A stretch of DNA of 62,022 bases from the NCBI GenBank assembly GCA_017962545.1, contig JAGCVD010000015.1, forward strand, positions 1 to 62,022. The letters run 5' to 3'. The notes beneath the pieces were generated by a model. The model was not told the origin of the DNA, did no database searches, and saw nothing but the letters and a program-made list of their open reading frames with translations. Shown piece after piece: positions 688 through 58,286 of this stretch. This stretch comes from Bacteroidales bacterium. GTDB lineage: Bacteria; Bacteroidota; Bacteroidia; Bacteroidales; P3. The translations under genes and the position numbers were made by a program. Positions within the stretch are counted from its first letter, which is position 1. Each line of letters opens with the position of its first letter.

Positions 688-2475
688 ATGAATATTGTAA
701 CTTCTCTTACACAGGCTATTAGCCAGGCTCTGCTGGCGCTGTACGGCATCGAGGCCGACGATAAATCGATTGTGCTGCAGGACACCCGCAAGGATTTCAA
801 GGGCGACTATACGCTGGTGGTGTTCCCCTATGTGAAACAGGCCCGCAAGGCTCCCGAGGCTGTGGCTCAGGAGATTGGCAGCCATGTGAAAGAGCATCTC
901 CCGCTCGTCAGCGGTTTCAACGTCATCAAGGGCTTCCTGAACTTCGAGGTGGCCGACAGCTATTGGCTGAAGTTTGTGGCCGAAAAGGGCAACGACACCG
1001 CTTTTGGCCTGCGTCAGGCCGACGTTACATCGGCTCCAGTAGTGGTTGAATACAGTAGTCCTAACACTAACAAGCCGTTGCATTTAGGTCATATCAGAAA
1101 CAACCTCCTCGGGTGGTCGGTGAGCCAGCTGCTGGCGGCCGCCGGCGCCAACGTGAAGAAGGTGAACCTCGTCAACGACCGAGGCATCCATATCTGCAAG
1201 AGTATGCTGGCATGGATGCGCTACGGTGGCGGCGAGACACCTGAGAGCAGCGGCATGAAGGGCGACCATCTGGTGGGCAAATACTATGTGGAGTTCGACA
1301 AACACTACAAGGAAGAGGTTAAACAGCTGATGGAGAGTGGGGTAGAGGAGGAGCAGGCCAAAAAGGAGGCCCCCTTGATGGTCGAGGCCCAGAGTATGTT
1401 GAAGCGTTGGGAAGAGGGCGACAAGGAGGTGCGTGCGCTGTGGGAGAAGATGAACGGATGGGTGTATGCCGGCTTTGACGAGACCTACCACCGTCTGGGC
1501 GTGGGCTTCGACAAGGTGTACTATGAGAGTCAGACCTATCTGCTCGGCAAGGAGCTCGTCAACAAGGGCTTGGATATGGGTGTGTTGTTCCGCAAGGAGG
1601 ACGGCTCGGTGTGGTGCGACCTGACGGGCGACGGCCTGGATCAGAAGTTGCTGCTGCGCCGCGACGGCACCAGCGTCTATATGACGCAGGACCTGGGCAC
1701 CGCCTTGTTGCGCCACAACGATTTCGGCGCCGAGAGGCTCATCTACGTGGTCGGCAACGAACAAGACTATCACTTTAAGGTACTGAAGTTAATACTCGGA
1801 AAACTAGGCTTTTCGTGGGCCGACAAAGTGTACCACCTCAGCTACGGTATGGTGGAGCTGCCCAACGGCAAGATGAAGTCGAGGGAAGGCACCGTGGTGG
1901 ACGCCGACGACCTGATCGACGAGATGGAGCAGACGGCCGCCGATATGAGCCGTGAGCACGGCAAGAACGACGAGCTTACGGAAGAGGAGCAGCGCCATCT
2001 GCACCACATCCTGGCGCTCGGAGCCCTCAAATACTTCATCCTCAAGGTCGACCCGACGAAGAATATGCTCTTCAACCCGGCCGAAAGCATCGACTTCAAC
2101 GGCAACACAGGTCCTTTCATACAATATACGCACGCGCGTATCCGTAGTATTGTCCGCAAGGCTGCAGAGAGTTCGGAGGTCGGAGCTTGGAGCTCGGAGT
2201 TGGAGATGAATGAGAAAGAACGCGCTGTGGTGAAGATTTTGCATGCGCTGCCGGAGAGCATCGCGGCTGCCGCCGCCGTCTTCAGCCCGGCCATGGTGGC
2301 CAACTATGCCTACGAGCTGGCCAAGGCTTTCAACAGTTTCTACCAGGACACGCCGATACTGCGCGAGGAGAACGCCCAGGTGCGCGCTTTCCGCGTCAGC
2401 CTCTGCGCCATGGTGGCCAACGCATTGAAAAACACGATGAATATTCTCGGCATAGAAGTGCCGGAACGAATGTAA
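688..2475 (+). CDS. argS: Arginyl-tRNA synthetase
   Basis: Class I aminoacyl-tRNA synthetase that charges tRNA-Arg; 595 residues, normal for the family. The N-terminal add-1 domain is followed by the HIGH motif as HLGH (about residues 132-135, after SSPNTNKP), the KMSKS loop as KMKS (about 395-398), and a DALR-type anticodon domain ending in NTMNILGIEVPERM. The ATG at 688 is used because the promoter overlaps the upstream in-frame TTG. Residues about 494-507 (SSEVGAWSSELEMN) are low complexity and are encoded by a 7-base tandem array, which looks like an insertion into an otherwise conserved helical region. A thioesterase gene starts one base after the stop codon, so the two are co-transcribed. 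Confidence 0.97.
   Translation: MNIVTSLTQAISQALLALYGIEADDKSIVLQDTRKDFKGDYTLVVFPYVKQARKAPEAVAQEIGSHVKEHLPLVSGFNVIKGFLNFEVADSYWLKFVAEKGNDTAFGLRQADVTSAPVVVEYSSPNTNKPLHLGHIRNNLLGWSVSQLLAAAGANVKKVNLVNDRGIHICKSMLAWMRYGGGETPESSGMKGDHLVGKYYVEFDKHYKEEVKQLMESGVEEEQAKKEAPLMVEAQSMLKRWEEGDKEVRALWEKMNGWVYAGFDETYHRLGVGFDKVYYESQTYLLGKELVNKGLDMGVLFRKEDGSVWCDLTGDGLDQKLLLRRDGTSVYMTQDLGTALLRHNDFGAERLIYVVGNEQDYHFKVLKLILGKLGFSWADKVYHLSYGMVELPNGKMKSREGTVVDADDLIDEMEQTAADMSREHGKNDELTEEEQRHLHHILALGALKYFILKVDPTKNMLFNPAESIDFNGNTGPFIQYTHARIRSIVRKAAESSEVGAWSSELEMNEKERAVVKILHALPESIAAAAAVFSPAMVANYAYELAKAFNSFYQDTPILREENAQVRAFRVSLCAMVANALKNTMNILGIEVPERM
2173..2200 (+). repeat. Heptamer array inside argS (4 units)
   Basis: Four tandem 7-base units, TCGGAGG, TCGGAGC, TTGGAGC and TCGGAGT, followed by a partial TGGAG. 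The unit has no stop codon in any reading frame on this strand. It encodes a low-complexity segment in the synthetase. Confidence 0.75.
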
Positions 2476-2476
2476 A

Positions 2477-3205
2477 ATGATTTTTTCGCAACATATTGAG
2501 GTTCCGTCGTACCTGTGTGACATCGACGACCGGCTGCACACATGGGCGGCGGTGCGCGTGTGCCAAGAAGTGACTGAACACCACGGAAATATCACCGGCA
2601 TAGGCTTCGACAAACTGCTGGAGCAGAACCACGCCTGGGTCATCACACGTGCGTTATACAATATATATAAGCTGCCGAACGCTTATGAGGAGATTGACCT
2701 AAGCACTTGGTCGAGAGGCAACAACGGACTTATCGCGATGCGTGACTACCGCATGCTGTCGGCCACGGGCGAAGAGCTGCTGACGGGAACGTCGTATTGG
2801 GCCATGATTGATATGTCGTCGCGGCGTGTGGTGCGGCTGAACGACGTGATTGCGCATTACGAAGATCACGACATGCTGGCCACGGAACATGCGACGCTGG
2901 ACAAAATCAAGCTGCCTGAGATGTCAGGCGACACGCCGGCATTGCAGACGCCAGCCACATTTGCCATGTTGGACCACACGCGGCATGTGAACAACTCGGA
3001 ATACATCAAGCTGATATTCGACGTGCTGCACGGCGTAGGATTCGACACGCACAAGCCGTTCACGCTGGAGCTGAATTTCCAGTTGGAGACGCGCTTTGGC
3101 GAATTGCTGACGATACATCATCGTCAGACAGACGGCGTGCATTATCTACAGATTATCAACCCGCGGGCGCTCAGTGTGGCCGCCAGGATTTCGCCATTGG
3201 CATAA
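2477..3205 (+). CDS. Acyl-ACP thioesterase
   Basis: 242 residues. It resembles the plant FatA/FatB-type acyl-[acyl-carrier-protein] hydrolases found in Bacteroidota, which release fatty acids from ACP. It has the double hot-dog layout: an N-terminal half with TWAAVRVCQEVTEHHG and ARALYN-like core strands, and a C-terminal half with the family signature HTRHVNNSEYIKL, whose Asn and His match the catalytic NxH motif. It starts one base after argS and is followed by a strong bidirectional terminator, so argS and this gene form a two-gene operon. Chain-length preference cannot be read from the sequence. Confidence 0.9.
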   Translation: MIFSQHIEVPSYLCDIDDRLHTWAAVRVCQEVTEHHGNITGIGFDKLLEQNHAWVITRALYNIYKLPNAYEEIDLSTWSRGNNGLIAMRDYRMLSATGEELLTGTSYWAMIDMSSRRVVRLNDVIAHYEDHDMLATEHATLDKIKLPEMSGDTPALQTPATFAMLDHTRHVNNSEYIKLIFDVLHGVGFDTHKPFTLELNFQLETRFGELLTIHHRQTDGVHYLQIINPRALSVAARISPLA

Positions 3206-8830: not shown

Positions 8831-11593
8831 CTATTTGAGAAGGTATTTCTTGAAGAAAGCCTCGTAAGCCACAGGGTCTTTGCGGTTATAGAAAGTGGCG
8901 TAGTTCTGGGTGGAGATGGCGAATTCGCGGTGGTCGGCGTCGGCATATCTGCGCAAGGGACTCTCTTCCTGCTGTAGATGACGGTAGTAGCCCATAGCTT
9001 CGGCCTCGGTGGCGAACTTGTGCACGGTGATGAGTTGTGAGCTGTCGGTAAAGAGGATTGCGTTGACCTTATAGCCTGAATTGGTGTAGTACTGTGTGTT
9101 GAAGTCGGCCAGCTTGTATTGCAGTTCAGTGGCCTTGATATGGCGGTCGTTGATGAGTACCAGGACATAGTAGGTCTGCCCTTCGCGGTATCGGTACACC
9201 ATTGCCTCGGGGGGCAACTCGTCGCTGGTCGCCTGTGCTGCCGGCCGGTTGTCGGTTTTGGCGACGTCGGCCTCTTTCTTGTCAGCGGCTGTCGACTCTG
9301 AAATATCTCCCACCGCCGCCAGTTCGGTCGTATCTTCCAGCAGCCAGTCAATCTGAGCCTGTGCCAGCGGCACAATGCTGTCGGTGGCGTTGGAACGACG
9401 TACGATGTCGCGGAAGGTGCCGAGAGCCTCACTGCGCTGTCCCAGGCGAATCTGCGCCATGCCTTTCCAATAGTGGAACTTGGGCAGCAAAGGATGAGCG
9501 ACGTAGAGCTCGTCGGCTTGATCGGCGAGGGTGACGACGGCACTGTAGCGCCGCCGGCTGTACTGGTCGTAGACATCCTCGTAGGCATCCTCGACAACGC
9601 TCTCGCGGCGCAGGAGTTCTTTGTAGTATTCGTTGTCGCGTATAAGGTTGGCGAAGTCGCTGTCGGGGAAGCCCATCAGCACCATATCGCGATAATAATT
9701 GGCCTGTGGCGTGTTGCCCTGTCGGTCATAGATGCGGTAGAGCATATAGAATGTCTGCACAATCTCGTCGTAGGAGGTGTAGTCGTTGGCCAATCGCAGA
9801 TAACACTCCAGCGCTCGCGGTGTGTTGCGCACACCGTCGTAGAAGAGATAGCCTGCGTTGAGGAGGCTGATGGCCGTCAGCGAGTCGATGGAATCGTATT
9901 GCGACTGTGTGGTGGGCAGGTCTTTGAGGTAGTAAGCCACATTGTGCGGATCGTCGGGATTGCCGGTGTCGACAGTATTCTTGGCGACGGTGGTAGTGTC
10001 ACCTGCGCCGGTGTTGTCGGTGGTGTCGCTGTCGTCCTGGGCGTCGGGGATGAGCATCCCGAACGAGGGCTTGTGGGAGAGACACCAGTTGTCCTCCAGA
10101 GCACGCATTCCCCAGCGCTGACGGAAGGTCTCCTTGCCTTTCTGCACCGTGTTCTGGTTGTAGAAGTACCAATCGCCCTTGAGGGTGTTCTGCTGTGCTT
10201 TGTCTTCGGCTGAAAGTTCGTCAAGGAGCGCCTTCATCCGAGCCCTCTCCTCTTGCGCTTTGAGGGTGTCAATCTTGTCTTGTATCAGTGCGTTACGTTC
10301 GGACTCAGGCATTGCCGCCACCGCCAGCAGGCTGTCGCAACGCTCATAGACACGGGTGTAGGAGCAGAGTTCGGTGAGCATGTCGCTGCGCCGTTTGATG
10401 GAGAGGTAATTGGGATAGTCGGATGTGATGCACTGCATGGCGGTGTCGTAGTAGAGCTGAGCCTGGTCGTAGTTCTCGTAGATGTCGTAGTATATCTCGG
10501 CCAGACGGAGCGACGACTTGGCTTTCTGCGCCTTGTTGACGGTTGCGACGGCCACGCTGCGTCGAAGGTTGTCGCAAGCCTTTTGTGCATCTTTCACTCC
10601 GAGGAACATCTCCCCTTTTGCATAGTATATCTGGTCGCGGTATTCTTCGTTCTTCTTGTCGCGCAACATGGCGTCGAGCTGCCGTTCCAACTTTCCTATG
10701 TCGCTGTGCTCGAGGTCGGCACACGAGGCTTCTCCCAGACGAGCGTTGAATTCCATCACGTAGGGCGGACCGTAGGAGAGCACCTTGTGGTAGTATTTGG
10801 CGGCGACCGAGCGACGGTCGAGCTTCTGGTATATCTGCGCCAGCAGGAACGTCAGTCGGGCTTTGGTGCTGTTGCTCGACGTGTTTTCTAGGGCCAGATG
10901 GATGTACTCCACCGCTTTCTTGTATTTTTCTTGCGGCACCGTGGCTTCGACCATCGCCAGGTAGAGCTTGTCGCACTGGCTGCGTGTGAAGTTGCCCTTA
11001 CCCAGATACTGCACCAACTGGTCGAGGGTGGCCTCTGCCTCGGTGTAACGTTTCTCCTGCGTCATACAGCGGGCCAGCAGTACGGCGCCCTCGTCGCCGG
11101 CACGGGTACCGTGGAATTGCGATATCAGTATGTTGCAGGTGTTGGCGGTACTCACATAGTCTTGCTTGTAGAAAGTGGCGTAGGCCGTCAGCAGGTAACA
11201 CTCCTTGATATAGGGCACATGCTCCTCGCCGCCGACGAAGATGCTGTGCCGCTTGATGCCCTTGATGCCTTTCTCTATGGCGCGGTCCATCTCGGGATTC
11301 ACCGAGCGGGCCGCGTCGGCGTTGCCCAGATATTCCACAGGCAGGAACGTCGTGTAATCGTCAACGGCATCTTTCTTCAACTTCTCGAGACCTGCCTTGA
11401 GGCTCTCGTTGCCGTTCCACCACACATTGTAGTGGCAGGTAGTGTTGTGATACTGTATGTTGCTCCACTTGGCCTTTTCGGTCGAGCAGGACGATAAAAG
11501 GGTCGAAAAGGACAAAAGGGTTATAAAGGTCAAAAGGGTTCCTTTCAACCCCATTAAACCTCTCAAACCTCTTATACCTTTTAATCCCCTCAT
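8831..11593 (-). CDS. porW: Type IX secretion lipoprotein PorW/SprE, TPR-rich
   Basis: 920 residues from ATG 11593; an ATG at 11605 would overlap ychF and add only four residues. A lipoprotein signal ends at LLSSC (Cys36). The following NIQYHNTTCHYNVWWNGNES region is typical of PorW/SprE, which connects the type IX secretion motor to the translocon in Bacteroidota. The rest is mostly tetratricopeptide-like helices with an acidic linker (about residues 520-555), and the C-terminus shows an SPOR-like strand pattern. The whole signal peptide is encoded by 9-base tandem repeats. It lies 4 bases after ychF and before bactofilin. The other secretion components are not in this window. Confidence 0.8.
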   Translation of the reverse strand: MRGLKGIRGLRGLMGLKGTLLTFITLLSFSTLLSSCSTEKAKWSNIQYHNTTCHYNVWWNGNESLKAGLEKLKKDAVDDYTTFLPVEYLGNADAARSVNPEMDRAIEKGIKGIKRHSIFVGGEEHVPYIKECYLLTAYATFYKQDYVSTANTCNILISQFHGTRAGDEGAVLLARCMTQEKRYTEAEATLDQLVQYLGKGNFTRSQCDKLYLAMVEATVPQEKYKKAVEYIHLALENTSSNSTKARLTFLLAQIYQKLDRRSVAAKYYHKVLSYGPPYVMEFNARLGEASCADLEHSDIGKLERQLDAMLRDKKNEEYRDQIYYAKGEMFLGVKDAQKACDNLRRSVAVATVNKAQKAKSSLRLAEIYYDIYENYDQAQLYYDTAMQCITSDYPNYLSIKRRSDMLTELCSYTRVYERCDSLLAVAAMPESERNALIQDKIDTLKAQEERARMKALLDELSAEDKAQQNTLKGDWYFYNQNTVQKGKETFRQRWGMRALEDNWCLSHKPSFGMLIPDAQDDSDTTDNTGAGDTTTVAKNTVDTGNPDDPHNVAYYLKDLPTTQSQYDSIDSLTAISLLNAGYLFYDGVRNTPRALECYLRLANDYTSYDEIVQTFYMLYRIYDRQGNTPQANYYRDMVLMGFPDSDFANLIRDNEYYKELLRRESVVEDAYEDVYDQYSRRRYSAVVTLADQADELYVAHPLLPKFHYWKGMAQIRLGQRSEALGTFRDIVRRSNATDSIVPLAQAQIDWLLEDTTELAAVGDISESTAADKKEADVAKTDNRPAAQATSDELPPEAMVYRYREGQTYYVLVLINDRHIKATELQYKLADFNTQYYTNSGYKVNAILFTDSSQLITVHKFATEAEAMGYYRHLQQEESPLRRYADADHREFAISTQNYATFYNRKDPVAYEAFFKKYLLK
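11492..11590 (-). repeat. Nonamer array encoding the PorW signal peptide (11 units, two opposed arms)
   Basis: Eleven tandem 9-base units in frame. The first six (11590..11537) are AGAGGTTTA-like and read RGL, KGI, RGL, RGL, MGL, KGT. The last five (11536..11492) are CTTTTGACC-like and read LLT, FIT, LLS, FST, LLS. The reverse complement of the second group is again an AAAGG-type unit, so the two groups are the same kind of repeat in opposite orientation. Confidence 0.8.
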
Positions 11594-11597
11594 AATC

Positions 11598-12698
11598 TTA
11601 CACATTAAATCTGAAATGCATGATGTCGCCGTCCTGTACCACGTAGTCCTTGCCTTCGACGGCTATCTTGCCTGCCTCGCGGCACTTGGCCTCGCTTCCA
11701 AGGGTCACGTAGTCGTCGTACTTGATTACCTCGGCGCGGATGAAGCCTCGCTCGAAGTCGCTGTGTATGATGCCTGCCGTCTGAGGGGCTTTCATTCCCT
11801 TGCGGAAAGTCCATGCGCGGCACTCCTTGGGACCGGCGGTGAGGAAAGTCTGCAGGCCCAGCAGACGGTAGGCCGCCTTGATGAGGCGGTTCACGCCGCT
11901 CTCCTCGAGCCCCAGGTCCTCCAGGAACATCTGCTTCTCCTCGTAGGTCTCCAGCTCGGCGATGTCGGCCTCGATGCCGGCACCGATGAGCAGTACCTCG
12001 GCCTGCTCGTCCTTCACCGCCTCACGGACAGCGTCGGAGTACTTGTTGCCTTTTACCACCGACGCCTCGTCGACATTGCAGACATAGATGACGGGCTTCG
12101 TGGTCAGCAGCATCAAATCCCTGGCCACCTCGGCCTGGTTGTCGTCGAGCGCCACCGTGCGGGCACTCCTGCCCGCCAGCAGAGCCTCCTTATAGAGGTC
12201 CATCACCTCCACCAACTTCTTGGCACGCGCGTCACCGCCGGCTTTACCCTTCTTCACCTCCTTGTCGTAACGGTTCTCGATGGTCTCCAGGTCCTTGAAC
12301 TGCAGCTCCGTGTCGATGGTCAGCTTGTCGCGCACCGGGTCGACGGTACCATCCACGTGCGTGATATTGTCGTCGTCGAAGCAGCGCAGCACATGGATGA
12401 TGGCGTCGCAGTTGCGTATGTCGGCCAGAAACTTGTTGCCTAAACCCTCTCCCTTCGAGGCACCTTTCACCAGCCCGGCGATGTCGACAATCTCGACGGT
12501 GGCCGGTACTACAGAGGCGGGACGTTCAATCTCGACCAGCTTGGCCAGCCGTTCGTCAGGGACAGTAATGACGCCCACATTGGGCTCGATGGTACAGAAA
12601 GGGAAATTGGCTGCCTGCGCTTTCGCGTTGCTCAGACAGTTGAAGAGTGTCGACTTGCCCACGTTGGGCAGTCCTACGATACCGCATTGAAGACTCAT
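11598..12698 (-). CDS. ychF: Ribosome-binding ATPase YchF (Obg family)
   Basis: 366 residues, standard length. P-loop GLPNVGKSTLFN near the start, switch region EPNVGVI, DIAGLVKGASKGEGLGNKFL, and NVDE in place of the usual GTPase NKxD, which accounts for its ATP preference. The C-terminal TGS-like domain contains the signature FxxGMKAPQTAGIIHSDFERGFIRAEV. YchF associates with ribosomes and with oxidative-stress control of translation. Its stop lies 4 bases before the porW start. Confidence 0.97.
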   Translation of the reverse strand: MSLQCGIVGLPNVGKSTLFNCLSNAKAQAANFPFCTIEPNVGVITVPDERLAKLVEIERPASVVPATVEIVDIAGLVKGASKGEGLGNKFLADIRNCDAIIHVLRCFDDDNITHVDGTVDPVRDKLTIDTELQFKDLETIENRYDKEVKKGKAGGDARAKKLVEVMDLYKEALLAGRSARTVALDDNQAEVARDLMLLTTKPVIYVCNVDEASVVKGNKYSDAVREAVKDEQAEVLLIGAGIEADIAELETYEEKQMFLEDLGLEESGVNRLIKAAYRLLGLQTFLTAGPKECRAWTFRKGMKAPQTAGIIHSDFERGFIRAEVIKYDDYVTLGSEAKCREAGKIAVEGKDYVVQDGDIMHFRFNV

Positions 12699-12702
12699 TA
12701 TA

Positions 12703-12731
12703 GTTTACGGTTTACAGTTTTACAGTTTACA
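12703..12731. repeat. Heptamer array between ychF and the glycosyltransferase gene
   Basis: Units on the plus strand: GTTTACG, GTTTACA, GTTTTACA, GTTTACA. The array fills the spacer before ychF and supplies the stop codon (TAA at 12729..12727) of the upstream glycosyltransferase. Confidence 0.7.
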
Positions 12732-13662
12732 GTTCTTTCTCTATTAGGTATTGGTTGCGGGTGGTCGAATTGCGGCATATTAGTTCGCCGAGGAAGCCGG
12801 CCAGGAATAGCATCATGCCGATGAGCACGAAGAGCATCGACAGATAGAACCACACACTGTTGGTCAGCGAGATACTGCCGGCCAGCCGCAAGGCGAGTAC
12901 CACCACGAGGGCCACGAAGCCCATCAAGAACGCCACGCTGCCCACGGCGCCGAAGAAATGCATCGGCTGCTTGCCGAATTTCGACATGAACATAATGCTC
13001 ATCAAGTCCAGATAGCCGTTGATGAAGCGGTTCATGCCGAACTTCGTTACACCGAACTCGCGCTTGCGGTGCTGCACCACCTTCTCGCCTATCTTTCCAA
13101 AGCCGGCCCACTTGGCGATGACGGGGATGTAACGGTGCATTTCTCCGTACACCTCGATGCTCTTCACCACCTCGTGGCGATAGGCCTTCAGGCCACAGTT
13201 GAAGTCGTGCAGATAAATGCCGCTCATGCGGCGTGTCGTCCAGTTAAAGAGTTTCGACGGCAGGTTCTTTGCCAGCTTGCTGTCATAGCGTTTCTTCTTC
13301 CAACCGCTGACGAGGTCGTAGCCTTCCTCCTTGATCATACGGTACAGCTCGGGCACCTCATCGGGCGAATCCTGCAGGTCGGCGTCCATGGTGATAACCA
13401 CATCGCCCTCGGCGGCGGCGAAGCCTGTGTTGAGGGCCGCACTCTTGCCGTAGTTGCGGCGGAATTTGATACCGCGCCAGCAAGGATTCTGCGCATGCAA
13501 CTGTTCCACGGCCTGCCATGTGCCGTCATTGGAACCGTCGTCGACGACGATGACCTCGTAGGTGAGGTGGTGCTCGTTCATCACGCGGTCGACCCATTCG
13601 GCCAAGTGCGGCAGCGACTCAGCCTCATTATATGATGGCACTATGATTGAAATCTGTTTCAT
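12727..13662 (-). CDS. Family 2 glycosyltransferase, polyprenyl-phosphate type
   Basis: 311 residues. The N-terminal GT-A domain begins ISIIVPSYNEAESL, has the nucleotide motif VVDDGSNDGT and the catalytic/metal motif TMDADLQDSP, and a LHDFNCGLKAYR block. Two C-terminal membrane helices (about residues 232-256 and 268-295) anchor it. This is the layout of dolichol- or undecaprenyl-phosphate sugar transferases (DPM1/GtrB/ArnC-like). The sugar and lipid acceptor cannot be told. The start overlaps the DUF4199 stop by four bases, so the two are translationally coupled. Its stop codon lies inside a 7-base array. Confidence 0.92.
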   Translation of the reverse strand: MKQISIIVPSYNEAESLPHLAEWVDRVMNEHHLTYEVIVVDDGSNDGTWQAVEQLHAQNPCWRGIKFRRNYGKSAALNTGFAAAEGDVVITMDADLQDSPDEVPELYRMIKEEGYDLVSGWKKKRYDSKLAKNLPSKLFNWTTRRMSGIYLHDFNCGLKAYRHEVVKSIEVYGEMHRYIPVIAKWAGFGKIGEKVVQHRKREFGVTKFGMNRFINGYLDLMSIMFMSKFGKQPMHFFGAVGSVAFLMGFVALVVVLALRLAGSISLTNSVWFYLSMLFVLIGMMLFLAGFLGELICRNSTTRNQYLIEKEL

Positions 13663-26796: not shown

Positions 26797-26828
26797 GCAA
26801 TAACGCAATAACACATTAACGCAATAAC
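26797..26828 (+). repeat. Octamer array between der and trxA (4 units)
   Basis: GCAATAAC, GCAATAAC, ACATTAAC, GCAATAAC in tandem. The array makes up nearly the whole 39-base spacer and ends 4 bases before the trxA ATG. Confidence 0.75.
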
Positions 26829-27147: not shown

Positions 27148-27153
27148 TTTTGG

Positions 27154-27239
27154 GGAGTGCATAGAGTTCAGGGAGTTCAGGACAAATGCACCGTTTAAGG
27201 TGACGTCTTGCACTCCTTGAACTTCTTGAACTCCTTGTA
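27154..27239. repeat. Inverted pair of nonamer arrays between trxA and DUF58
   Basis: Left arm 27154-27180: GGAGTGCAT, AGAGTTCAG, GGAGTTCAG. Right arm 27213-27239: CTCCTTGAA, CTTCTTGAA, CTCCTTGTA. The right arm is the same kind of unit in reverse complement, so the two can form a hairpin with a 32-base loop. There is no T tract; it could act as a processing or attenuation structure. Confidence 0.7.
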
Positions 27240-27243
27240 AAGG

Positions 27244-28259: not shown

Positions 28260-29315
28260 ATGAAGTTATCGCAATTCAGGTTCAACCTGCCGAAAGAACT
28301 TATAGCTGAGAAGCCTGTCCGCAACCGTGACGAGGCAAGATTGTTGGTATTGCACCGCGAGAGCGGTGAGGTGGAGCACCGACTGTTCAAGGATTTTATA
28401 GAATATGTTGACGAGGATGACGTGGTGGTGGCCAATAACACGAGGGTGTTCCCCTCGCTGTTGGAGGGTGAGAAGGAGAAGACGGGCGCCCGTATCGAGG
28501 TGCTGCTGCTGCGTGAGCTGAACGAGGACATGCGGCTGTGGGATGTGATTGTCGACCCTGCCCGCAAGATTAGGATTGGCAACAAACTGTATTTCGGCAC
28601 CAACGACGCGCTAGTGGCCGAGGTGGTCGACAACACCACGAGCCGAGGACGTACCATCAGGTTCCTCTTCGACGGCAGCCACGAGGAATTCATCAGCATT
28701 GTGCGCGGCATGGGCCGCGTGCCGCTGCCCGACGAACTGCGCCGCCTGCGTGACATCGAGAAGAGCGACACGGAGAATTACCAGACAATTTACGCCAAGA
28801 AGGAGGGCAGCGTGGCCGCCCCCATAGCGGGCCTGCACTTCAGCCGTGAGCTGTTGAAGCGAATGGAGATAAAGGGCGTGAAATGGGTGGAGCTGACATT
28901 GCACACGGGCATGGGTGAATTCAAACCCATCGAGGTGGAAGACCTCTCAAAGCACCGTATGGACGCCGAGGAGATGCATGTAGACCAGAATGTGTGCGAA
29001 GCCATCATGAACGCCAAGAACAGCGGGAAGAAAGTCTGCTGCGTGGGCACCACGACGATGCGTGCGGTAGAGAGCGCGGTGACTATCCCAGGGACCATCC
29101 GCCCGTATGACGGATGGACCAACAAGTTCATCTTCCCCCCGTACGATTTTACGATAGCCGACATGATGGTGACGAATTTTCACCATTCCATGAGCAGCCA
29201 GTTTATCATGGCGAGCGCTTTCGCCGGTCCCGAGTTGCTGATGGAGACCTACCAGACGGCAATCAAGGAGAAGTATCGTTTCTCGACCTACGGCGACGCG
29301 ATGCTGATTCTTTAG
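28260..29315 (+). CDS. queA: tRNA preQ1-34 S-adenosylmethionine ribosyltransferase-isomerase
   Basis: 351 residues. Transfers and rearranges the ribose of S-adenosylmethionine onto preQ1 in tRNA to make epoxyqueuosine. Characteristic blocks: [28 protein letters not shown]-type opening, [34 protein letters not shown], and VNxH-like [11 protein letters not shown]. The usual family motif PTAGLHF appears as APIAGLHF. tgt, the preceding step, is in the same window at 48907. Upstream is an AT-rich spacer of 89 bases without an obvious TAnnTTTG box. Confidence 0.95.
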
Positions 29316-29346
29316 TAGTTAAGTAGACAGTAGTTAAGTAATTAAG
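29316..29346 (+). repeat. Short array between queA and rarA
   Basis: TAGTTAAG, TAGACAG, TAGTTAAG, TAATTAAG in tandem (7-8 bases each), filling the 34-base spacer from the queA stop to just before the rarA ATG. Confidence 0.65.
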
Positions 29347-29349
29347 ACA

Positions 29350-35375: not shown

Positions 35376-35504
35376 ATTTCGTTTGTTTTCTCATCATTAA
35401 CGACAATACGTCCGATTTATTATGTTCGCACGCGAGAAAAACAGCAAAACAGACTATCCAACACTCCTATGCCCTCCCTACCAGCAAGCCACTTCCCTCC
35501 CCAT

Positions 35505-35590
35505 TTCGACCATCGTTTAACCATACTTCGACCATACTTCAACCATAAGTAATGGTTAAACTACCATTGAAGGATTGTTTAAGTATGGTC
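35505..35590. repeat. 11-base tandem array with inverted partner arm
   Basis: 35505-35548 holds four 11-base units: TTCGACCATCG, TTTAACCATAC, TTCGACCATAC, TTCAACCATAA. The following ATGGTTAAAC (35552-35561) and GTTTAAGTATGGTC (35577-35590) are the same unit in reverse complement. The spacer 35376-35667 holds no gene; this array is its main content. Confidence 0.7.
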
Positions 35591-35667: not shown

Positions 35668-36783
35668 TTAAACGTTGGCCTTGGGATAGAAGTAGAAGTA
35701 TTTGGTAACTTGCTTCTCCAGAAAATGGCGGTCGAGCTGGTCGCTGGCCTCGCTGATGGGCAGACAGCGTCCGTCTTTGTAGAGGACTTTTATCTCCTGG
35801 TCGTTGAAGTCGTAGGAACGGTTATGCAATTGCCCCGTGCCATGGAAGTAATCCGTCTCGACACCTTCAAAGGGCTCATTGCTGAAGCGTATAGCCGGCA
35901 GACGACGGTTGACCATATTGCGGCAAAGGGTGCTGAGCGTCGCGTCGTCCGAATGCTGCCAATGCTTGACGGCGACCATAATGTCGTCGTCGTCCACCTC
36001 GGCAAAGCGGTCGAGATCGAAAGTCGAAAGTTCAAAGTTGAAAGTCGAAAGATTCAACTCACGGGCACGACGGAGGATGTTGAGTAGCAGGTTGTCGGCG
36101 GCGATGACGGTCTTGTGCATATATACCTGCCAATACATCAGGCGGCGGCTGATGATGAATTTCTCGACGCTGTAGATGCCTTTCTCGTCGATAACGAGCT
36201 CGTCGTCATGCACGTTAAGCATACTGATGATGCGGTCAGTCCCCACGATGCCCTCGCTGACGCCGGTGAAGAAGGAGTCGCGCCCCAGATAGTCGAGGCG
36301 GTCCATATCGAGTTGGCTGCTGACGAGCTGGTGGAGGAAATGCTTTGGGTAGCGGTTGGCGAATATCTCGATGGCGGTGTTCAGCGCTCCGTTCATCTCT
36401 TTATTGATGCGCTGCATCATCAAGAGGGTTATCTCCTCGTGAGGCACGTCGACGAGCACGCGCTCGCTGGTGTGTGAGAAGGGACCGTGACCGATGTCGT
36501 GAAGCAGGATGGCCAGCTTGGCCCCGCGGCACTCGTCGTCGGTAATCTTAACACCTTTCTGGCGCAGCACCTCCAAGGCGCGGCCCATGAGATTGAGGGC
36601 GCCGAGCATGTGGCTGAAGCGGGTGTGCATGGCGCCGGGATAGACGAGGTAGGTCAACCCCAGCTGCTTGATGCGGCGTTGCCGCTGGAACCAAGGGTGC
36701 TCGACAACGCTGAGTATCACAGGGTCGTCGATGCTGAGGAAGCTGTCATATACGGGGTCGTTGATGATTTTGCGCTTGGTCAT
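35668..36783 (-). CDS. HD-domain phosphohydrolase (SAMHD1/dGTPase-like)
   Basis: 371 residues. HD metal-site residues appear in order: HTRFSHMLGALN, LLHDIGHGPFSH, and DMDRLDYLGRDSFF, as in SAMHD1-like dNTP hydrolases and their uncharacterised bacterial relatives. Substrate not determined. Residues about 245-256 (within ELNLSTFNFELSTFDLDRF) are encoded by a 7-base tandem array and look like an insertion in a loop. It is the last gene of the sufB-led run and starts 4 bases after the preceding stop. Confidence 0.88.
   Translation of the reverse strand: MTKRKIINDPVYDSFLSIDDPVILSVVEHPWFQRQRRIKQLGLTYLVYPGAMHTRFSHMLGALNLMGRALEVLRQKGVKITDDECRGAKLAILLHDIGHGPFSHTSERVLVDVPHEEITLLMMQRINKEMNGALNTAIEIFANRYPKHFLHQLVSSQLDMDRLDYLGRDSFFTGVSEGIVGTDRIISMLNVHDDELVIDEKGIYSVEKFIISRRLMYWQVYMHKTVIAADNLLLNILRRARELNLSTFNFELSTFDLDRFAEVDDDDIMVAVKHWQHSDDATLSTLCRNMVNRRLPAIRFSNEPFEGVETDYFHGTGQLHNRSYDFNDQEIKVLYKDGRCLPISEASDQLDRHFLEKQVTKYFYFYPKANV
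36017..36051 (-). repeat. Heptamer array inside the HD-domain gene (5 units)
   Basis: Plus-strand units TCGAAAG, TCGAAAG, TTCAAAG, TTGAAAG, TCGAAAG. Read on the coding strand the unit CTTTCGA is free of stop codons in all three frames, so the array can pass through a reading frame. Confidence 0.75.
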
Positions 36784-44454: not shown

Positions 44455-47049
44455 ATGACAAGTAACGAAATACGCAAAGCCTTTTTAGACTATTTTGAAA
44501 GCAAACAACACCATGTGGTGCCCAGCGCTCCCATGGTCATCAAGAACGACCCGACGCTGATGTTCACCAACGCCGGCATGAACCAGTTCAAGGACATCTT
44601 CCTCGGCAACCAAGCCGCTCAGTGGTCACGTGCCACCGACAGCCAGAAATGCCTTCGTGTAAGCGGCAAGCACAACGACCTCGAGGAGGTGGGCCATGAC
44701 ACCTACCACCACACCATGTTCGAGATGCTGGGCAACTGGTCGTTCGGCGACTATTTCAAGAAAGAGGCCATCGCCTACGGCTGGGAGTTCCTCACCGAGG
44801 TGATGAAAATCAACAAGGACTGGCTCTATGTCACCGTTTTCGGTGGCGACGAAAAGGAGGGGCTCGCCATGGACACCGAAGCCTATGACTTCTGGAAGGC
44901 TCACATCAGCGAGGACCGCATCCTCAAAGGCTCTAAGAAGGACAACTTCTGGGAGATGGGCGACCAAGGTCCCTGCGGTCCCTGCTCGGAGATACACGTC
45001 GACATACGTCCCGACGAAGAGAAGGCCAAAGTGCCAGGCAAAGATCTGGTCAACAAAGACAATCCTCAAGTCATTGAGATATGGAACCTCGTGTTCATGC
45101 AGTTCAACCGCAAGGCTGACGGCACCCTCGAGCCGCTGAAAGCCAAGCATATCGACACCGGTATGGGTTTCGAGCGCCTCTGCATGGTGATGCAGGGCAA
45201 GCGTTCGAACTACGACACCGATGTGTTCCAACCCCTTATCCAGGAACTCGCCGCCAAGGCCGGTAAACAATACGGACAAGATGAAGAGGTCGATGTGGCG
45301 TTGCGCGTCTGTGCCGACCACCTGCGTGCCGTCAGCTTCTCCATCGCCGACGGGCAGCTGCCCAGCAACGTCAAGGCGGGCTACGTCATCCGTCGCATCC
45401 TGCGTCGCGCTGTCCGCTATGGCTACACCTTCCTCGGCTTCACCGAGCCGTTCATGAACACCCTCGTCCCCCCCCTCGTCGAACAGATGGGTCACCAATT
45501 CCCCGAGTTGCAGAAGCAGCAAGACCTTATCCAGCGCATCATCCTCGAAGAGGAGCAGGCCTTCCTCCGCACCCTCGCCGGCGGCATCAAGCGCTTCGAG
45601 GAATACGCCGGCAAATGCACAAGCAAGGTTGTTGATGGTGCCTTTGCATTTGAACTGTTCGACACCTATGGTTTCCCCATCGACCTCACCCAACTGCTTG
45701 CCAGCGAAAAAGGTCTCGCCGTTGATATGGAGGGCTTCGAGAAAGGCCTGCAGGAGCAGAAAGAGCGCAGCCGCGGAGCTGCAAAGGTTGAGAGCGACGA
45801 CTGGCAGGAACTACTGCCTGGTGTGGAGCAGGAATTCGTGGGTTACGACACCCTCGAAGCCGATGTACGCATTGCCCGCTACCGCCACGTGAAAGCCAAA
45901 GACAAGGAGTTCTACCAACTGGTGTTCGACCGCACCCCCTTCTATGGCGAGAGCGGCGGCCAGGCCGGCGACACAGGGGAATTGAGAATTGAAAATTTAA
46001 AATTGAAAATTGTCAATACCAAGAAAGAGAACGGCCTCATCGTGCATATCGTCAATGAGTTGCCCGCCGACCTGACGGCCACCTTCCACGCCTCGGTGGA
46101 TGTTACCAAGCGCCAAGCCACCGCCTGCAACCATTCGGCCACGCACCTGATGCACTACGCCCTTCGTCAGGTCCTCGGCGACCATGTGGAACAGAAAGGC
46201 TCGAGCGTCGATGCCGAACGCCTGAGGTTCGACTTCAGCCACTACGAGAAGATGAGCCACGAGCAGATACGCGAGGTGGAACGCCGTGTGAACGAGATGA
46301 TACGCCAGTGCCTGCCCCTCGAGGAGCATCGCGCCATGCCCATCGCCGAAGCCCAGAAGCTGGGTGCGATGGCCCTCTTCGGCGAGAAATACGGCGACCA
46401 TGTGCGTGTGGTCAAATATGGCACCAGTATCGAGTTCTGCGGCGGCACCCATGTCGCCAATACAGGCATGATAGGCAGCTTCCGCATCGTCAGCGAAGGC
46501 GCCGTTGCCGCCGGCATGCGCCGCATCGAGGCCATCACCGCCGAAGCAGCCACAGCCTTTGCCGACCATCAGCAGGAGCAATTGGCCGCATTGGCAGACC
46601 TCTTCAAAGGCACCAAAGACCTCGCGGCCTCCATCATCAAACTACAGGAAGAGAACACCCAACTGAAGGCCTCCGTCGAGCAGATGCAGAAAGAAAAAGC
46701 AGCAGGAGTGGCCCGCGAAATAGCGAACAAATTGACCTCGTCTCCGATACTCATTGAACGTATCGAAAACGATGTCAACCCCCTCAAGGATGCCATTGTT
46801 GCCCTCCGCAACGACCATCCCGATATGGCCGTGGTGCTCGGAAGTGTCAAAGACGGCAAACCCGCCTTGCTCATCGTGCTGGGTCAGAACCGCGTCGATG
46901 CCGGCCTCAACGCCGGTCAGCTGGTGCGCACCCTCGGCAAAGAAATACAAGGTGGTGGCGGCGGACAGCCTCATTTCGCCACCGCTGGCGGCAAGAACCC
47001 CGACGGCATAGACCGAGCTCTCTCCGTAGCCAAGGAGATGCTGCCTTAA
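44455..47049 (+). CDS. alaS: Alanyl-tRNA synthetase
   Basis: 864 residues, class II. Motif 1 region FTNAGMNQFKDIFLG, the aminoacylation core, then the editing domain with HxxxH (NHSATHLMHYALRQ) and the zinc-binding CGGTHVANTG, and the C-terminal DHHA1/C-Ala region with GGGGGQPHFATAGGKNPDG. Residues about 509-521 (ELRIENLKLKIVN) are encoded by a 7-base array inserted between the conserved GDTG and TKKENG blocks. The stop codon lies in the first unit of a second array. Confidence 0.98.
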   Translation: MTSNEIRKAFLDYFESKQHHVVPSAPMVIKNDPTLMFTNAGMNQFKDIFLGNQAAQWSRATDSQKCLRVSGKHNDLEEVGHDTYHHTMFEMLGNWSFGDYFKKEAIAYGWEFLTEVMKINKDWLYVTVFGGDEKEGLAMDTEAYDFWKAHISEDRILKGSKKDNFWEMGDQGPCGPCSEIHVDIRPDEEKAKVPGKDLVNKDNPQVIEIWNLVFMQFNRKADGTLEPLKAKHIDTGMGFERLCMVMQGKRSNYDTDVFQPLIQELAAKAGKQYGQDEEVDVALRVCADHLRAVSFSIADGQLPSNVKAGYVIRRILRRAVRYGYTFLGFTEPFMNTLVPPLVEQMGHQFPELQKQQDLIQRIILEEEQAFLRTLAGGIKRFEEYAGKCTSKVVDGAFAFELFDTYGFPIDLTQLLASEKGLAVDMEGFEKGLQEQKERSRGAAKVESDDWQELLPGVEQEFVGYDTLEADVRIARYRHVKAKDKEFYQLVFDRTPFYGESGGQAGDTGELRIENLKLKIVNTKKENGLIVHIVNELPADLTATFHASVDVTKRQATACNHSATHLMHYALRQVLGDHVEQKGSSVDAERLRFDFSHYEKMSHEQIREVERRVNEMIRQCLPLEEHRAMPIAEAQKLGAMALFGEKYGDHVRVVKYGTSIEFCGGTHVANTGMIGSFRIVSEGAVAAGMRRIEAITAEAATAFADHQQEQLAALADLFKGTKDLAASIIKLQEENTQLKASVEQMQKEKAAGVAREIANKLTSSPILIERIENDVNPLKDAIVALRNDHPDMAVVLGSVKDGKPALLIVLGQNRVDAGLNAGQLVRTLGKEIQGGGGGQPHFATAGGKNPDGIDRALSVAKEMLP
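45980..46014 (+). repeat. Heptamer array inside alaS (5 units)
   Basis: AATTGAG, AATTGAA, AATTTAA, AATTGAA, AATTGTC. With a 7-base period the reading frame changes at each unit; the third unit, where the consensus would read TGA in frame, has T instead of G and so avoids a stop. Confidence 0.8.
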
Positions 47050-47087
47050 ACCTTAAACATTAAACATTAAACCTTAAACATTATACA
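47046..47087 (+). repeat. Heptamer array after alaS (6 units)
   Basis: TTAAACC, TTAAACA, TTAAACA, TTAAACC, TTAAACA, TTATACA. It contains the alaS stop codon in its first unit and fills the spacer to the next ATG at 47090. Confidence 0.8.
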
Positions 47088-47089
47088 CT

Positions 47090-47335
47090 ATGGATTTACA
47101 GAGCATCACCACTTTAATGCTTTCTGCCGACTACAAGGACAGAATGAAAGGCGAGTACTACCACCTGCTCAACCGCAAGGAGAACCTTGAGGCCGTCCTC
47201 AAACTTTGGGACAACGGCAAGCTGACCTTCACCCCCGACTGCCCCCGTAGCATCTACGACCTGCAGATGCGCGCCATGAACGACTACAAGGCTGTCCTCG
47301 AGGCACGCGCCAAGATTGAAGGCGTAGCTCTTTAA
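47090..47335 (+). CDS. Small protein resembling the crAss001_48-related family
   Basis: 81 residues, mostly helical: DYKDRMKGEYYHLLNRKENLEAVLKLWDNG, then FTPDCPRSIYDLQMRAMNDYKAVLEARAKIEGV. The DYKxRxxxEYxxL...CP...QxxxMxxYxxxLxxRAxIEG pattern is that of small proteins common in phages and prophages, including the crAss001_48-related group; the assignment is by pattern only. No other phage gene is near. It sits between alaS and a secreted protein. Confidence 0.65.
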   Translation: MDLQSITTLMLSADYKDRMKGEYYHLLNRKENLEAVLKLWDNGKLTFTPDCPRSIYDLQMRAMNDYKAVLEARAKIEGVAL

Positions 47336-55521: not shown

Positions 55522-56037
55522 AAAAGCGAAGGTCTGTAAGCCGGGTTCTGTCGTGTTCTATCATTAATCTAGGGCCGCCGTCACCGACGGTCTCAATCAA
55601 CCCACCCTCCAACCTTGGACGGAAGTACTCTCGTCTTTTGAGGGCGAGCCTGCCCTCGGTCGCCCGACCGGCTGGTATACATGGTCTTTCAGCCCATGAG
55701 GCTTGCCATCGTGCCCGTCACCAGAACACGTCGTGGGCTCTTACCCCGCGTTTTCACCCTTACCCATCAAGGGTTATGGGTTATTGGTTATAGGTTACGG
55801 AGGTTGGGCGAAACTGATACATCCACATGTATGCGGCAGTGACTATAACCCATAACCTATAACCAATAACCTTTCACCTCTCGAAAGGCGGTTTCTTTTC
55901 TGTGGCGCTCGCTGTGGCCACACGGTTACCCGTAATGGCCCCTTCCCGTTAGGAAGCATGGTGGCTCGTGCTGCCCGGACTTTCCTCTCAGTCCCCTTTT
56001 ACGGGGCCGAGCGATAGAACGGCCTCCGCTATTTTTC
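55522..56037 (-). ncRNA. rnpB: RNase P RNA, bacterial type A, with heptamer-expanded P12
   Basis: Catalytic RNA that trims the 5' leader of tRNA precursors. P1 pairs AGCGGAGG (56030..56023) with CCTTCGCT (55532..55525). The conserved P4 strands are GAGGAAAGTCCGGGC (55987..55973) and ACAGAACCCGGCTTAC (55551..55536). GGTAAGGGTGAAA and GGTAAGAGCCCAC are also present. Total length is about 516 bases against the usual 350-400; the excess is a hairpin in the P12 position, made of two opposing 4-unit heptamer arms. The 3' end runs into CTTTTTTTC. A TAnnTTTG promoter lies just upstream. Confidence 0.95.
55772..55871. repeat. Opposed heptamer arms in the P12 hairpin of rnpB
   Basis: Plus strand, arm 1 (55772-55799): GGTTATG, GGTTATT, GGTTATA, GGTTACG. 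Arm 2 (55844-55871): TATAACC, CATAACC, TATAACC, AATAACC, the reverse complement of the same unit. Both arms have exactly four units and enclose a 44-base middle part. The best pairing is shifted by one unit. Confidence 0.85.
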
Positions 56038-56043
56038 CGGCGG

Positions 56044-56051: not shown

Positions 56052-56093
56052 CGAAAAAAATACGATATGGCAGAAAAAAGTTGCCCTCGAACC

Positions 56094-56918
56094 CTATCTC
56101 ACCACCGTGACAGTACCCTTCTCTTCGCGCAGATTCCCAGCACTGTCGCGGTATCGGGCCACCCACACATACGTCCCCTGCGGCACCGTGCTGCCGCCCA
56201 TCGTGGCGTCCCAACCGCGGGCAATATCGTCCGTCGAGAAAATCTGACGGCCTCCACGGTTGAAAATAATCAGGTGGAAATGGCTGACGGCACTGGTGGC
56301 CTGAACCTTGAAGACGCGGTTCTCGACATCGTCCGACGAAGGCACGATGACATTCGGCGCCCACAACAGATTCTCATGTTGCGGCGTCACGGAAGCGCTG
56401 CCACCCTCCTTCGTCTCAGCGCGGAAATCGGAGTTGCTCGAAGCGTCAGCCAACTCCGCACCCTGCACTCCCTCCTCCGAACTCACAGCCGCCGCCTCAG
56501 TACCGGTTTCCCGAACCCCCGGGGCAATCACCGTCCTTACTGGCTCCACGGTTTCGACTGCCACCGTCGGCATTGGATCAACAGGACTCTCCTCCACCGC
56601 CGGACTTTCCTCCTTCGTTACCGATTGTTGTACAACAACAGCCACCGTCCTCGTTTCGCCGACAGCCGTCACCGTTGCAACTTCGGCCATCTGGGATGTA
56701 GCCTCGGACAACGTTGATTCCACCCCTGCCACCTCGGTCGATGCGACAGCCCTCGGCCCGACCACCGTCGGCTTCAGCAGCCACACGGCGACGCCGACCA
56801 CCACTGCGGCAGCCAGCGCCGCACCACCCACCCGGGCCCTGCGGCGCAGGCGTACACGGCGTTCAATCTTCCCGAACAGCCCCTCATCGGGCATCACGCG
56901 ATAATCCTTCAAGTCCAT
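56094..56918 (-). CDS. Anti-sigma-like membrane protein with gliding-motility (type B T9SS) C-terminal domain
   Basis: 274 residues. A short basic cytoplasmic end (MDLKDYRVMPDEGLFGKIE then RRVRLRRRARV) leads into one membrane helix (about 30-48), the layout of small Bacteroidota anti-sigma factors. A long Val/Thr/Glu-rich linker spans about 50-180. The end (about 185-274) matches the gliding-motility-associated/CHU_C domain: PNVIVPSSDDVENRVFKV, HLIIFNRGGRQIF, GWDATMGGSTVPQGTYVW, and GTVTVVR as the last residues. It directly follows an ECF sigma gene. That it holds the sigma factor inactive is an inference from context. Confidence 0.8.
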   Translation of the reverse strand: MDLKDYRVMPDEGLFGKIERRVRLRRRARVGGAALAAAVVVGVAVWLLKPTVVGPRAVASTEVAGVESTLSEATSQMAEVATVTAVGETRTVAVVVQQSVTKEESPAVEESPVDPMPTVAVETVEPVRTVIAPGVRETGTEAAAVSSEEGVQGAELADASSNSDFRAETKEGGSASVTPQHENLLWAPNVIVPSSDDVENRVFKVQATSAVSHFHLIIFNRGGRQIFSTDDIARGWDATMGGSTVPQGTYVWVARYRDSAGNLREEKGTVTVVR

Positions 56919-56967
56919 ATCTTAATTCTTAATTCTAAATTCTAAATTTTAATTTTCAATTTTCAAC
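56919..56967 (-). repeat. Heptamer array at the sigma/anti-sigma junction (7 units)
   Basis: Plus strand: ATCTTAA, TTCTTAA, TTCTAAA, TTCTAAA, TTTTAAT, TTTCAAT, TTTCAAC. It encodes the last residues (LKIEN) and stop codon of the sigma factor and forms the whole spacer to the anti-sigma ATG. Confidence 0.8.
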
Positions 56968-57467: not shown

Positions 57468-57524
57468 TTTTGGTTTACAATATAGATACCCGAAAGAAGA
57501 TCATTGTTGCCGCATTAACATTAT

Positions 57525-58286
57525 TTAACAAGCCTCCGGCCTCACATCCACCACCTCCACACAGCCCTCCCCGACACGGAAAAGCACCTCCCAGCGGTCG
57601 AAAAAAAACGCATAGACACGTTGAGGGTCGTGCTGATAATGCGGACGGGGGTCGTGAGCCAAAGTCTGCACCAGCGCATTGCGCCGTTCCTCGGGGAGCT
57701 GCAGCAGCAAACCATGGTCGTCGACCACACCGAGAGCCGCCGAAGGCGCTTCCTGGGCAAAGCCGCTGCGAGCCTGTGGATGAGCGTCGGCATAGGCGAC
57801 ATAGGGCTTGATGTCGAAAATGGGGGTGCCGTCCACCAGATCGGCGCCGCCGACATAGAGCACAGGCCCCACCCCGGGCTCCTGCGCCACACGCAGCAGC
57901 CTGACACTGGACAGGCCTATGGCGTTGGGTCGGAAAGGACTGCGCGTGGCGAAAACCCCCACCCTCTTGTTGCCGCCCAGACGCGGCGGCCGCACCGTGG
58001 GGCTCCAACCATCAGACTTCAAGACCTCAAGACCACTAGACATCAAATCCTGAGCTCCCCTTGTCTCGCCGTCTCGAAGACTCGAAGACTCGCCGTCTCG
58101 AAGTCCATTCAGGTGAAACTTCCAGATAAGCCAGACATAGTCGAACTCCTCCAAACCGCGTACCGCCTCCGCCACACGGTATTCCGGCTCGAAAACCACA
58201 CGACCCTCACAGTCGACCAGTCCCGCCTGCCGCGGAACGCCGAACTTTTGCCTGAAAGGCGTCTCAATGTGCGCAATCTGTTTCAT
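57525..58286 (-). CDS. trmO: tRNA (t6A37) N6-methyltransferase TrmO
   Basis: 253 residues from ATG 58286, whose ATGA overlaps the aldo/keto reductase stop; an earlier GTG is less likely. TrmO methylates t6A37 in tRNA using S-adenosylmethionine. Family blocks: IETPFRQKFGVPRQAGL, FDYVWLIWKFH, WSPTVRPPRLGGN, VGVFATRSPFRPNAIGLS, and a C-terminal VYAFFFDRWEVLFRV. Residues about 60-92 (between WKFH and WSPTV) are an insertion encoded by two opposed 8-base arrays; other TrmO proteins have only a few residues there. Confidence 0.93.
   Translation of the reverse strand: MKQIAHIETPFRQKFGVPRQAGLVDCEGRVVFEPEYRVAEAVRGLEEFDYVWLIWKFHLNGLRDGESSSLRDGETRGAQDLMSSGLEVLKSDGWSPTVRPPRLGGNKRVGVFATRSPFRPNAIGLSSVRLLRVAQEPGVGPVLYVGGADLVDGTPIFDIKPYVAYADAHPQARSGFAQEAPSAALGVVDDHGLLLQLPEERRNALVQTLAHDPRPHYQHDPQRVYAFFFDRWEVLFRVGEGCVEVVDVRPEAC
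58010..58102. repeat. Opposed octamer arms inside trmO
   Basis: Plus strand, arm 1 (58010-58041): CATCAGAC, TTCAAGAC, CTCAAGAC, CACTAGAC. Arm 2 (58063-58102): GTCTCGCC, GTCTCGAA, GACTCGAA, GACTCGCC, GTCTCGAA. The second arm is the first kind of unit in reverse complement (GTCTyGAA). The units stay free of in-frame stops. Confidence 0.8.

Follow-up and report, generated by a model that had tools for sequence, protein, structure and literature searches.

The contig JAGCVD010000015.1 of a Bacteroidales bacterium (GenBank assembly GCA_017962545.1), analysed here in its full length of 62,022 nucleotides and called the window below, carries many short tandem arrays with units of 7, 8, 9 or 11 bases. 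Units recur at separate places of the same genome, and an orthologous place in a related species may hold no array, an array, or an array with a different unit. We see a roughly even chance that these arrays belong to a genome-wide population that spreads by copying between arrays of the same genome, in either orientation, and is kept where it is tolerated; it would be a Bacteroidales counterpart of the short tandemly repeated repetitive sequences (STRRs, or heptamer repeats) of cyanobacteria. The window equals a complete contig of its genome, which spans 1.95 Mb in 42 contigs and is 81% complete. Relatives were searched for in 36 further genomes of the host genus and in 24 genomes belonging to other families of the order, and a genus-wide pattern search covered 120 genomes including the host. 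G numbers denote sampled genomes, one per species, and L numbers sampled stretches.

Tandem Repeats Finder (TRF; period 7-11, at least 2.8 copies, score at least 36) detected 17 arrays in the window, compared with a mean of 0.08 and a maximum of 1 in 50 dinucleotide shuffles, which clearly excludes a frequency like that of shuffled sequence. An earlier note on this DNA had named 13 array loci. TRF recovers 12 of them, with correct coordinates; the remaining one, at 35505, falls under the copy limit, yet is found in a looser TRF list as an 11-mer of 2.6 copies. The array at 27154 is real, and its period is 9 (GGGAGTTCA, with CTTGAACTC in the other arm) instead of the 8 first assigned. A stricter in-house detector for periods 7-11 identified 13 window arrays at a score cut-off of 10, including 10 of the 13 named loci (shuffles 0.06), and eight at a cut-off of 13, including seven (shuffles 0.00). 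Widened to periods 4-16, it found eight arrays, compared with 0.03 in 30 shuffles. The loci are as follows.

2165..2205, plus strand: 7-mer array of the TCGGAGC type in a variable stretch inside argS (open reading frame (ORF) 637-2475); TRF, Pfam tRNA-synt_1d/DALR.
11494..11590, minus strand: pair of inverted 9-mer arrays that codes for the leader of a TPR lipoprotein resembling PorW (ORF 8831-11605); TRF, congener alignment.
12698..12734, unstranded: 7-mer array GTTTACA between two genes, touching both ends; absent in G071, G019, G009 and G022; TRF, alignment.
26797..26828, unstranded: 8-mer array GCAATAAC in the spacer upstream of a thioredoxin gene; TRF, alignment, Pfam.
27148..27240, unstranded: 9-mer inverted array pair in a spacer; absent in G071, G008, G023 and G009; TRF, alignment.
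29312..29348, unstranded: 8-mer array AGTAGTTA between a queuosine-synthesis gene and the next gene; TRF, alignment, Pfam.
35500..35590, unstranded: 11-mer inverted array TTCGACCATAC in a spacer; G008 and G023 have CGATACTTCAA arrays at this place, and nothing aligned in the other five species in which the site was located; TRF, alignment.
36012..36053, minus strand: 7-mer array TCGAAAG inside the gene of an HD-domain protein (ORF 35668-36783); TRF, alignment, Pfam.
45973..46015, plus strand: 7-mer array AATTGAA in a variable loop of alaS (ORF 44455-47049); TRF, alignment.
47040..47090, unstranded: 7-mer array TTAAACA at and beyond the end of alaS; TRF, alignment.
55765..55875, minus strand: two inverted 7-mer arms (GGTTATN) inside rnpB, lengthening a stem; rnpB comparison, fold.
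56915..56966, unstranded: TTCTAAA 7-mer array, close upstream of a gene that encodes a CHU_C (type IX secretion signal) domain; TRF, Pfam.
58010..58110, minus strand: 8-mer arrays AGACCTCA and GTCTCGAA inside trmO (ORF 57525-58295); the insert is absent in seven of eight congeners, and G009 has a shorter array-like insert; TRF, alignment, Pfam.

Across the genome and its relatives the arrays form a non-random, lineage-enriched class. In 412,980 bases of host sequence (the window and 20 stretches) there were 13.1 arrays per 100 kb; 397,041 bases from 20 congeners, mostly picked around alaS or rnpB, gave 21.2, and 342,964 bases from 20 other families of the order gave 0.6; one dinucleotide shuffle of each sampled stretch gave 0.0. 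Later congener stretches, mostly 20-kb contig starts scanned at a slightly looser cut, gave 10.7 and 19.0 arrays per 100 kb in two sets of congeners. Counts in the host and congener samples were 29 and 41 for period 7, 6 and 28 for period 11, 10 and 4 for period 9, and 4 and 7 for period 8. Periods 1-6 together gave five in each, compared with four in the controls, and period 10 gave none; looser cuts or the later stretches add a small number of arrays with period 6 or 10 (period 6 at a looser cut: eight in the host sample, two in controls). In the host sample 31 of 68 arrays lie within stop-to-stop frames of at least 300 codons on either strand, some of which may be spurious and one of which is a repeat protein with several arrays. 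Beyond the genus, 76 public Bacteroidota loci (581,209 bases) contain 25 arrays, most of them in a few lineages. A stretch of G000 (L070, contig C9, 11395-17293) that is included in the array counts is coding-like and bears 9-base repeats of the ACTAGTACC type, probably a repeated protein motif and not this phenomenon.

Bacterial heptamer repeats have been noted for decades, and we know of no agreed origin for them. In the 120 genomes of this genus, a restrictive 7-mer pattern (a single pattern, overlapping hits counted) yields from 0 to 596 whole-genome hits; a reversed-pattern control, which arrays probably match too, gave similar counts, and the background was judged from seven congeners with zero hits. 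With such a range, and with orthologous sites that lack an array in one species and carry one, or one of another unit, in others, the origin of the arrays becomes directly testable.

In support of the reading in the earlier note, orthologous loci vary between species: arrays are present in one and absent in another, and their units often differ. The sampled DNA of the genus holds 223 array blocks, 74 of which have an alignable orthologous place in another species. For 24 of the 223 (85 pairs) at least one counterpart falls short by three quarters of the block's length or more, and 84 of these 85 counterparts are free of arrays; some are imperfectly empty, the rnpB counterparts bearing other short hairpins. 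Where both sides carry an array (107 pairs, scored by the best match over all arrays of each block), the unit is the same or one base different in 46 and differs by at least two bases or by period in 61. Pairs with a single array on each side divide similarly (62 pairs; 26 alike, 36 different). The eight congeners used in locus comparisons are 13-20% diverged at alaS. Alignment succeeded for one of the eight (G036) at the 56919 site, for seven each at the 35505 and 47046 sites, and for 25 of 30 loci at alaS.

Single loci illustrate this turnover. In alaS the array occupies a loop of near-fixed length, in which the unit varies among AATTGAA, GAGTTAA, AAAGTGG and GTTGCAAC types; replacement at nearly equal length was counted in favour of copying. 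By eye, no array was seen in the alaS of ten aligned, more distant congeners (among L050-L061). The argS stretch, also judged by eye, has AAAGTGG in G008, TCTCAAC/TCTCAAT in G019 and G009, AAATTCA in G036 and no array in G071, G023, G022 and G004. At the 29312-29348 spacer, G008, G036, G022 and G004 have nothing and G071 next to nothing, and the arrays of G000, G019, G009 and G023 are made of different units.

The earlier note had taken each locus to have its own private unit. This is wrong, as identical units recur within genomes. Among 285 arrays, pairs from the same genome have identical units in 6.2% (7-mers), 9.8% (8-mers), 10.1% (9-mers) and 14.7% (11-mers) of cases, compared with 1.9, 2.8, 2.0 and 0.4% for pairs from different genomes and 0.3, 0.1, 0.0 and 0% after letter shuffling; the within- to between-genome ratio ranges from 3 to 37 by period. 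In the sample AAACTTT occurs seven times, only in G036, ACCAGATACCT five times, only in G004, and AACTCCG five times, only in G000; AAAATTG is present in nine genomes. The AATTGAA array of alaS has matches at many places in congeners and four further matches in the host genome, whose positions are not among the matches listed. Array blocks match other loci of their own genome at 25.6 per Mb and other genomes at 7.2 per Mb, some over about 100 bp at 90% identity or more. Long mixed blocks in L137 (G023) and L129 (G008) hold several heptamer families and a repeated TTCGAGTAATTCGC word.

The blocks with empty counterparts bear most directly on the origin of the arrays. For these 24, blocks with the same unit lie at least 2 kb away in the same genome at 17.2 per Mb, compared with 2.4 per Mb elsewhere (7.1-fold; 17.8 and 2.4 per Mb if partners closer than 2 kb are included), and 11 of the 24 have such a partner within the small sampled part of their own genome. 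The subset with a counterpart gap of at most 10 bases (14 blocks) gives 16.1 and 1.7 per Mb, with a partner for seven. The earlier note had proposed that the arrays are made from local sequence, perhaps with template turn-around giving the inverted arms. In such a local birth, a word of 7-11 bases present on site would be amplified by strand slippage or hairpin priming, with fold-back giving the inverted arms. It is favoured by the array variants, most of which differ from one unit by point changes. The unit does not resemble the empty site above the null level: in 23 blocks and 63 pairs (one of the 24 blocks had no usable site in the narrow window) the best match is 4.86 bases, compared with 4.73 for units from other genomes, and a wider window gives 5.34 and 5.31. 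Periods 2-6, where slippage usually acts, are barely raised, and the recurrence of units within genomes also stands against local birth, which we now think unlikely. As same-unit partners are found in the own genome and a match to the empty site is not, we prefer copying between arrays over birth from local sequence.

The inverted arms that the earlier note had pointed out are a real excess. Neighbouring arrays no more than 150 bases apart form 74 pairs, of which 27 have the same unit inverted, 12 the same unit in direct orientation, 20 another unit and 15 another period; the inverted share expected for random same-period pairs is 4.9%. Loops are 2-6 bases long in seven of the 11 inverted pairs of 11-mers, and the gap ranges from 17 to 98 in the 14 inverted pairs of 7-mers. 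At six sites, halves from the same species match each other better than halves from different species (mean 11.6, n = 22, compared with 7.3, n = 72; p = 0.0015). The better match is not found at every site, the one at 12703 lacking it. The mirror pairs of 11-mers with tiny loops, and hairpins of 11-mers with symmetric arms in G012, resemble fold-back extension and so favour the local origin set out above. Two G012 samples (L219 and L230) contain near-identical hairpins with arms of 53-54 bases made of 11-base units, almost perfectly complementary.

Inverted arms are present at rnpB and at the PorW-like gene as noted earlier, and those of rnpB form one long stem in the predicted fold, lengthening a stem that we take to be P12. 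Arrays occur in four of 36 rnpB genes of the genus, all of the GGTTATN family, with the G036 array outside the stem. Whether distant genera share a unit at an orthologous place was followed at rnpB, where none of the 20 genes located in other families carries an array (two of the 22 given were not located).

We infer the copying mechanism, including its strand-switch route. A nascent strand at or near the replication fork would switch template to another array of its own genome through a few bases of homology, copy some units in either orientation and then return. The outcome would be an array at a new site, or an existing array overwritten with its phase unchanged, and folding back onto the array just copied would produce an inverted arm. 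Selection would retain the harmless copies, in spacers between co-directed genes, in the rnpB stem and in variable stretches of proteins such as those of alaS, argS and trmO.

Part of the array population has a recurrent neighbour. The motif GGCTG(A/C)CGCA lies beside some 7-mer arrays (CTGCCGCA 13 times vs 2.3 expected, GCTGACGC 14 vs 3.0). GGCTG(A/C)CGCA or GCTTGCGCA, partly palindromic, follows some 7-mer arrays by 2-4 bases, in spacers of G000, G008, G019, G023 and G036, and G036 has compound blocks of array, core and array at several loci. Counting CTG(A/C)CGCA, CTTGCGCA and two variants, 33 of 465 occurrences are within 60 nt of an array, where 18.4 are expected given how much of the DNA lies near arrays. 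The most enriched 8-mer beside arrays is TCGAGTAA (8 vs 0.29 expected). A single core motif common to all arrays was rejected, the motif being near a minority only.

These blocks, repeated at several G036 loci, and the motif excess would suit a dispersed mobile element, REP- or MITE-like, with inverted arrays round a conserved core and a transposase acting in trans. REP/RAYT palindromic elements are short dispersed inverted structures between genes, and the present arrays are alike in this respect; they differ in that most have no fixed core and no Y1 transposase tracks with them. Y1 transposases matched in 46 of 61 genomes. No Y1_Tnp match was found in the array-bearing G000, G008, G009, G014, G019 and G029, three of which are at least 95% complete and some incomplete. 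By eye, no target-site duplication was consistently visible at the junctions, in species that are diverged and at sites where mirror arms are common. With the core absent near most arrays, we regard a mobile element as quite improbable.

Fixed preferred periods and the related, purine-rich form of the commonest 7-mers (R R R T T N R, from reading the unit list) could also reflect enzymatic addition of repeats, telomerase-like or templated by a reverse transcriptase. The number of units, 65 distinct 7-mers in 151 arrays of the sampled genomes, argues against this, as does the distribution of the enzyme: RVT_1 matched in 26 of 61 genomes and in none of G000, G001, G002, G004, G008, G009 and G023. 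The link to a reverse transcriptase that the earlier note had considered fails, as G001, G002, G004, G009 and G023 bear arrays, are 95-98% complete and lack RVT_1. Some gene absences may be gaps of incomplete genomes. We give enzymatic addition very little credence.

At a first look, array-rich congeners tended to lack SbcD. A further rival explanation holds that ordinary repeats accumulate once mismatch repair or the hairpin nuclease SbcCD is lost. Short-loop hairpins of period 11 number 14 in 939 kb without SbcD (seven of 22 genomes) and one in 396 kb with it (one of 14), and array density differs by SbcD when the new stretches are pooled with earlier, partly chosen ones (p = 0.007; four genomes dropped, from 14 and 23 to 11 and 22). 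In contrast, the newly taken 20-kb stretches alone give 10.7 arrays per 100 kb with SbcD and 19.0 without (p = 0.14; six genomes below 9 kb dropped, from 14 and 18 to 11 and 15). G071, G070, G073 and G080, at that point unassigned by SbcD status, stood outside both groups in both tests. The genus-wide 7-mer pattern has a median of 34 hits with SbcD (n = 57) and 62 without (n = 63; p = 0.39), and compared per genome the hairpin difference has p = 0.15. MutS is present in 35 of 37 genomes of the genus, against a loss of mismatch repair. Loss of repair, already largely refuted for the 7-mers, is the least credible of the explanations. The arrays are thus explained neither by Y1 transposases or reverse transcriptases nor by loss of MutS or SbcD; for the 11-mer hairpins SbcD loss may still play a part.

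Several points weigh against copying between arrays. For no single event was a copy followed from donor to recipient by a unique pattern of variants, and 13 of the 24 blocks with empty counterparts have no same-unit partner in the sample. A genome-specific bias in unit formation would likewise give recurrence within genomes, and copying alone leaves the preference for periods 7, 9 and 11 unexplained. As the eight congeners are so diverged at alaS, substitutions could have removed the trace of a short seed on site. Presence and absence were counted without a tree, so that gain and loss are not separated, and the pair counts are not independent, as a species pair may count from both sides and the loci were partly picked around genes of the window. 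The rnpB arrays of four species belong to one unit family, and unit turnover is therefore not universal. Finally, the GGCTG(A/C)CGCA motif suggests that a minority of arrays may have arisen in a more element-like way.

The cyanobacterial STRRs, proposed earlier as the nearest analogy, hold up as such, since here too degenerate 7-base units occur many times per genome, above chance and in rnpB. Repeats of this kind, with heptanucleotide units, were reportedly described by Vioque in 1997 in heterocystous cyanobacteria, including their rnpB. STRRs are defined as confined to cyanobacteria and to 7-base units. The present arrays share with them the degenerate 7-base tandem units, the many copies per genome and the place in the RNase P RNA gene, and differ in their phylum, in having 8-, 9- and 11-base units as well, in the in-frame arrays and in the frequent mirror pairs. 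They go beyond that limit, being found in Bacteroidales with periods 8, 9 and 11 raised and patchily in other Bacteroidota.

Of the known heptamer systems, the P6b stem of the Nostoc trnL intron is a fixed stem-loop at which one heptamer class has repeatedly replaced another; this concerns one locus and two classes, whereas here many loci, dozens of units and protein genes take part (PMC4476775). TAACTGA repeats are described from Beggiatoaceae, cyanobacteria and five Bacteroidetes, mostly between genes, with repeat-free spacers in relatives; there a single unit was studied and a regulatory role proposed, here there are many units and many sites within genes (PMC4679880). For Xanthomonas and Nostoc a strong excess of heptamers over other unit sizes, like the one seen here, was suggested to arise by polymerase slippage, and these are G-rich units of one type (PMC4692102). 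Borg tandem repeats likewise evolve fast in genes and spacers; their units are perfect and, in genes, always a multiple of three bases long, and mirror pairs are not described in the sections seen (PMC9879509). Spread of satellites within a prokaryote genome has been called rare in one published survey, which deals mainly with long repeats (PMC6749651).

Our literature search, mostly of freely accessible papers, found no description of such arrays in gut Bacteroidales, nor of signal peptides made from arrays. As far as it shows, several features are new: which periods occur together, that units change at many sites and in essential genes too, how large the excess of mirror pairs is, the evidence against a local origin and the array-encoded signal peptides. 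Important proteins can evidently take up such repeats, as the arrays within alaS, argS and the PorW-like lipoprotein show. A bolder reading, which we hold to be less likely than not, is that copying independent of transposases seeds and rewrites short-period arrays genome-wide, in either orientation and often without change of length, and serves as a source of new parts: halves of signal peptides from a purine-rich array and its mirror, protein loops, and an RNA stem. If true, this would make the copying process a source of new protein and RNA parts in bacteria.

The PorW-like protein is one case, at least, in which an array pair may have been retained because its product works, the inverted pair giving a basic and then a hydrophobic stretch that resemble a signal peptide. 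Its name comes from the earlier note, and Pfam gives TPR repeats only. The window protein (8831-11605, minus strand; leader 11494-11605) begins MCKIMRGLKGIRGLRGLMGLKGTLLTFITLLSFSTLLSSC, in which the purine-rich arm encodes the basic part and the inverted arm the hydrophobic part ahead of a cysteine. Read from the sequence, inverted array pairs with differing units thus appear to encode the predicted signal peptide and lipobox of this lipoprotein. The leaders of the G008, G023 and G022 orthologues have no such inverted pair. A weaker inverted pair is present in the G009 orthologue, and those of G036 (MINKEYKGVKGVRGVQDKCTVKGVLSRTPALLALFALLVLLVASC), G019 and G004 have the same leader design built from other units.

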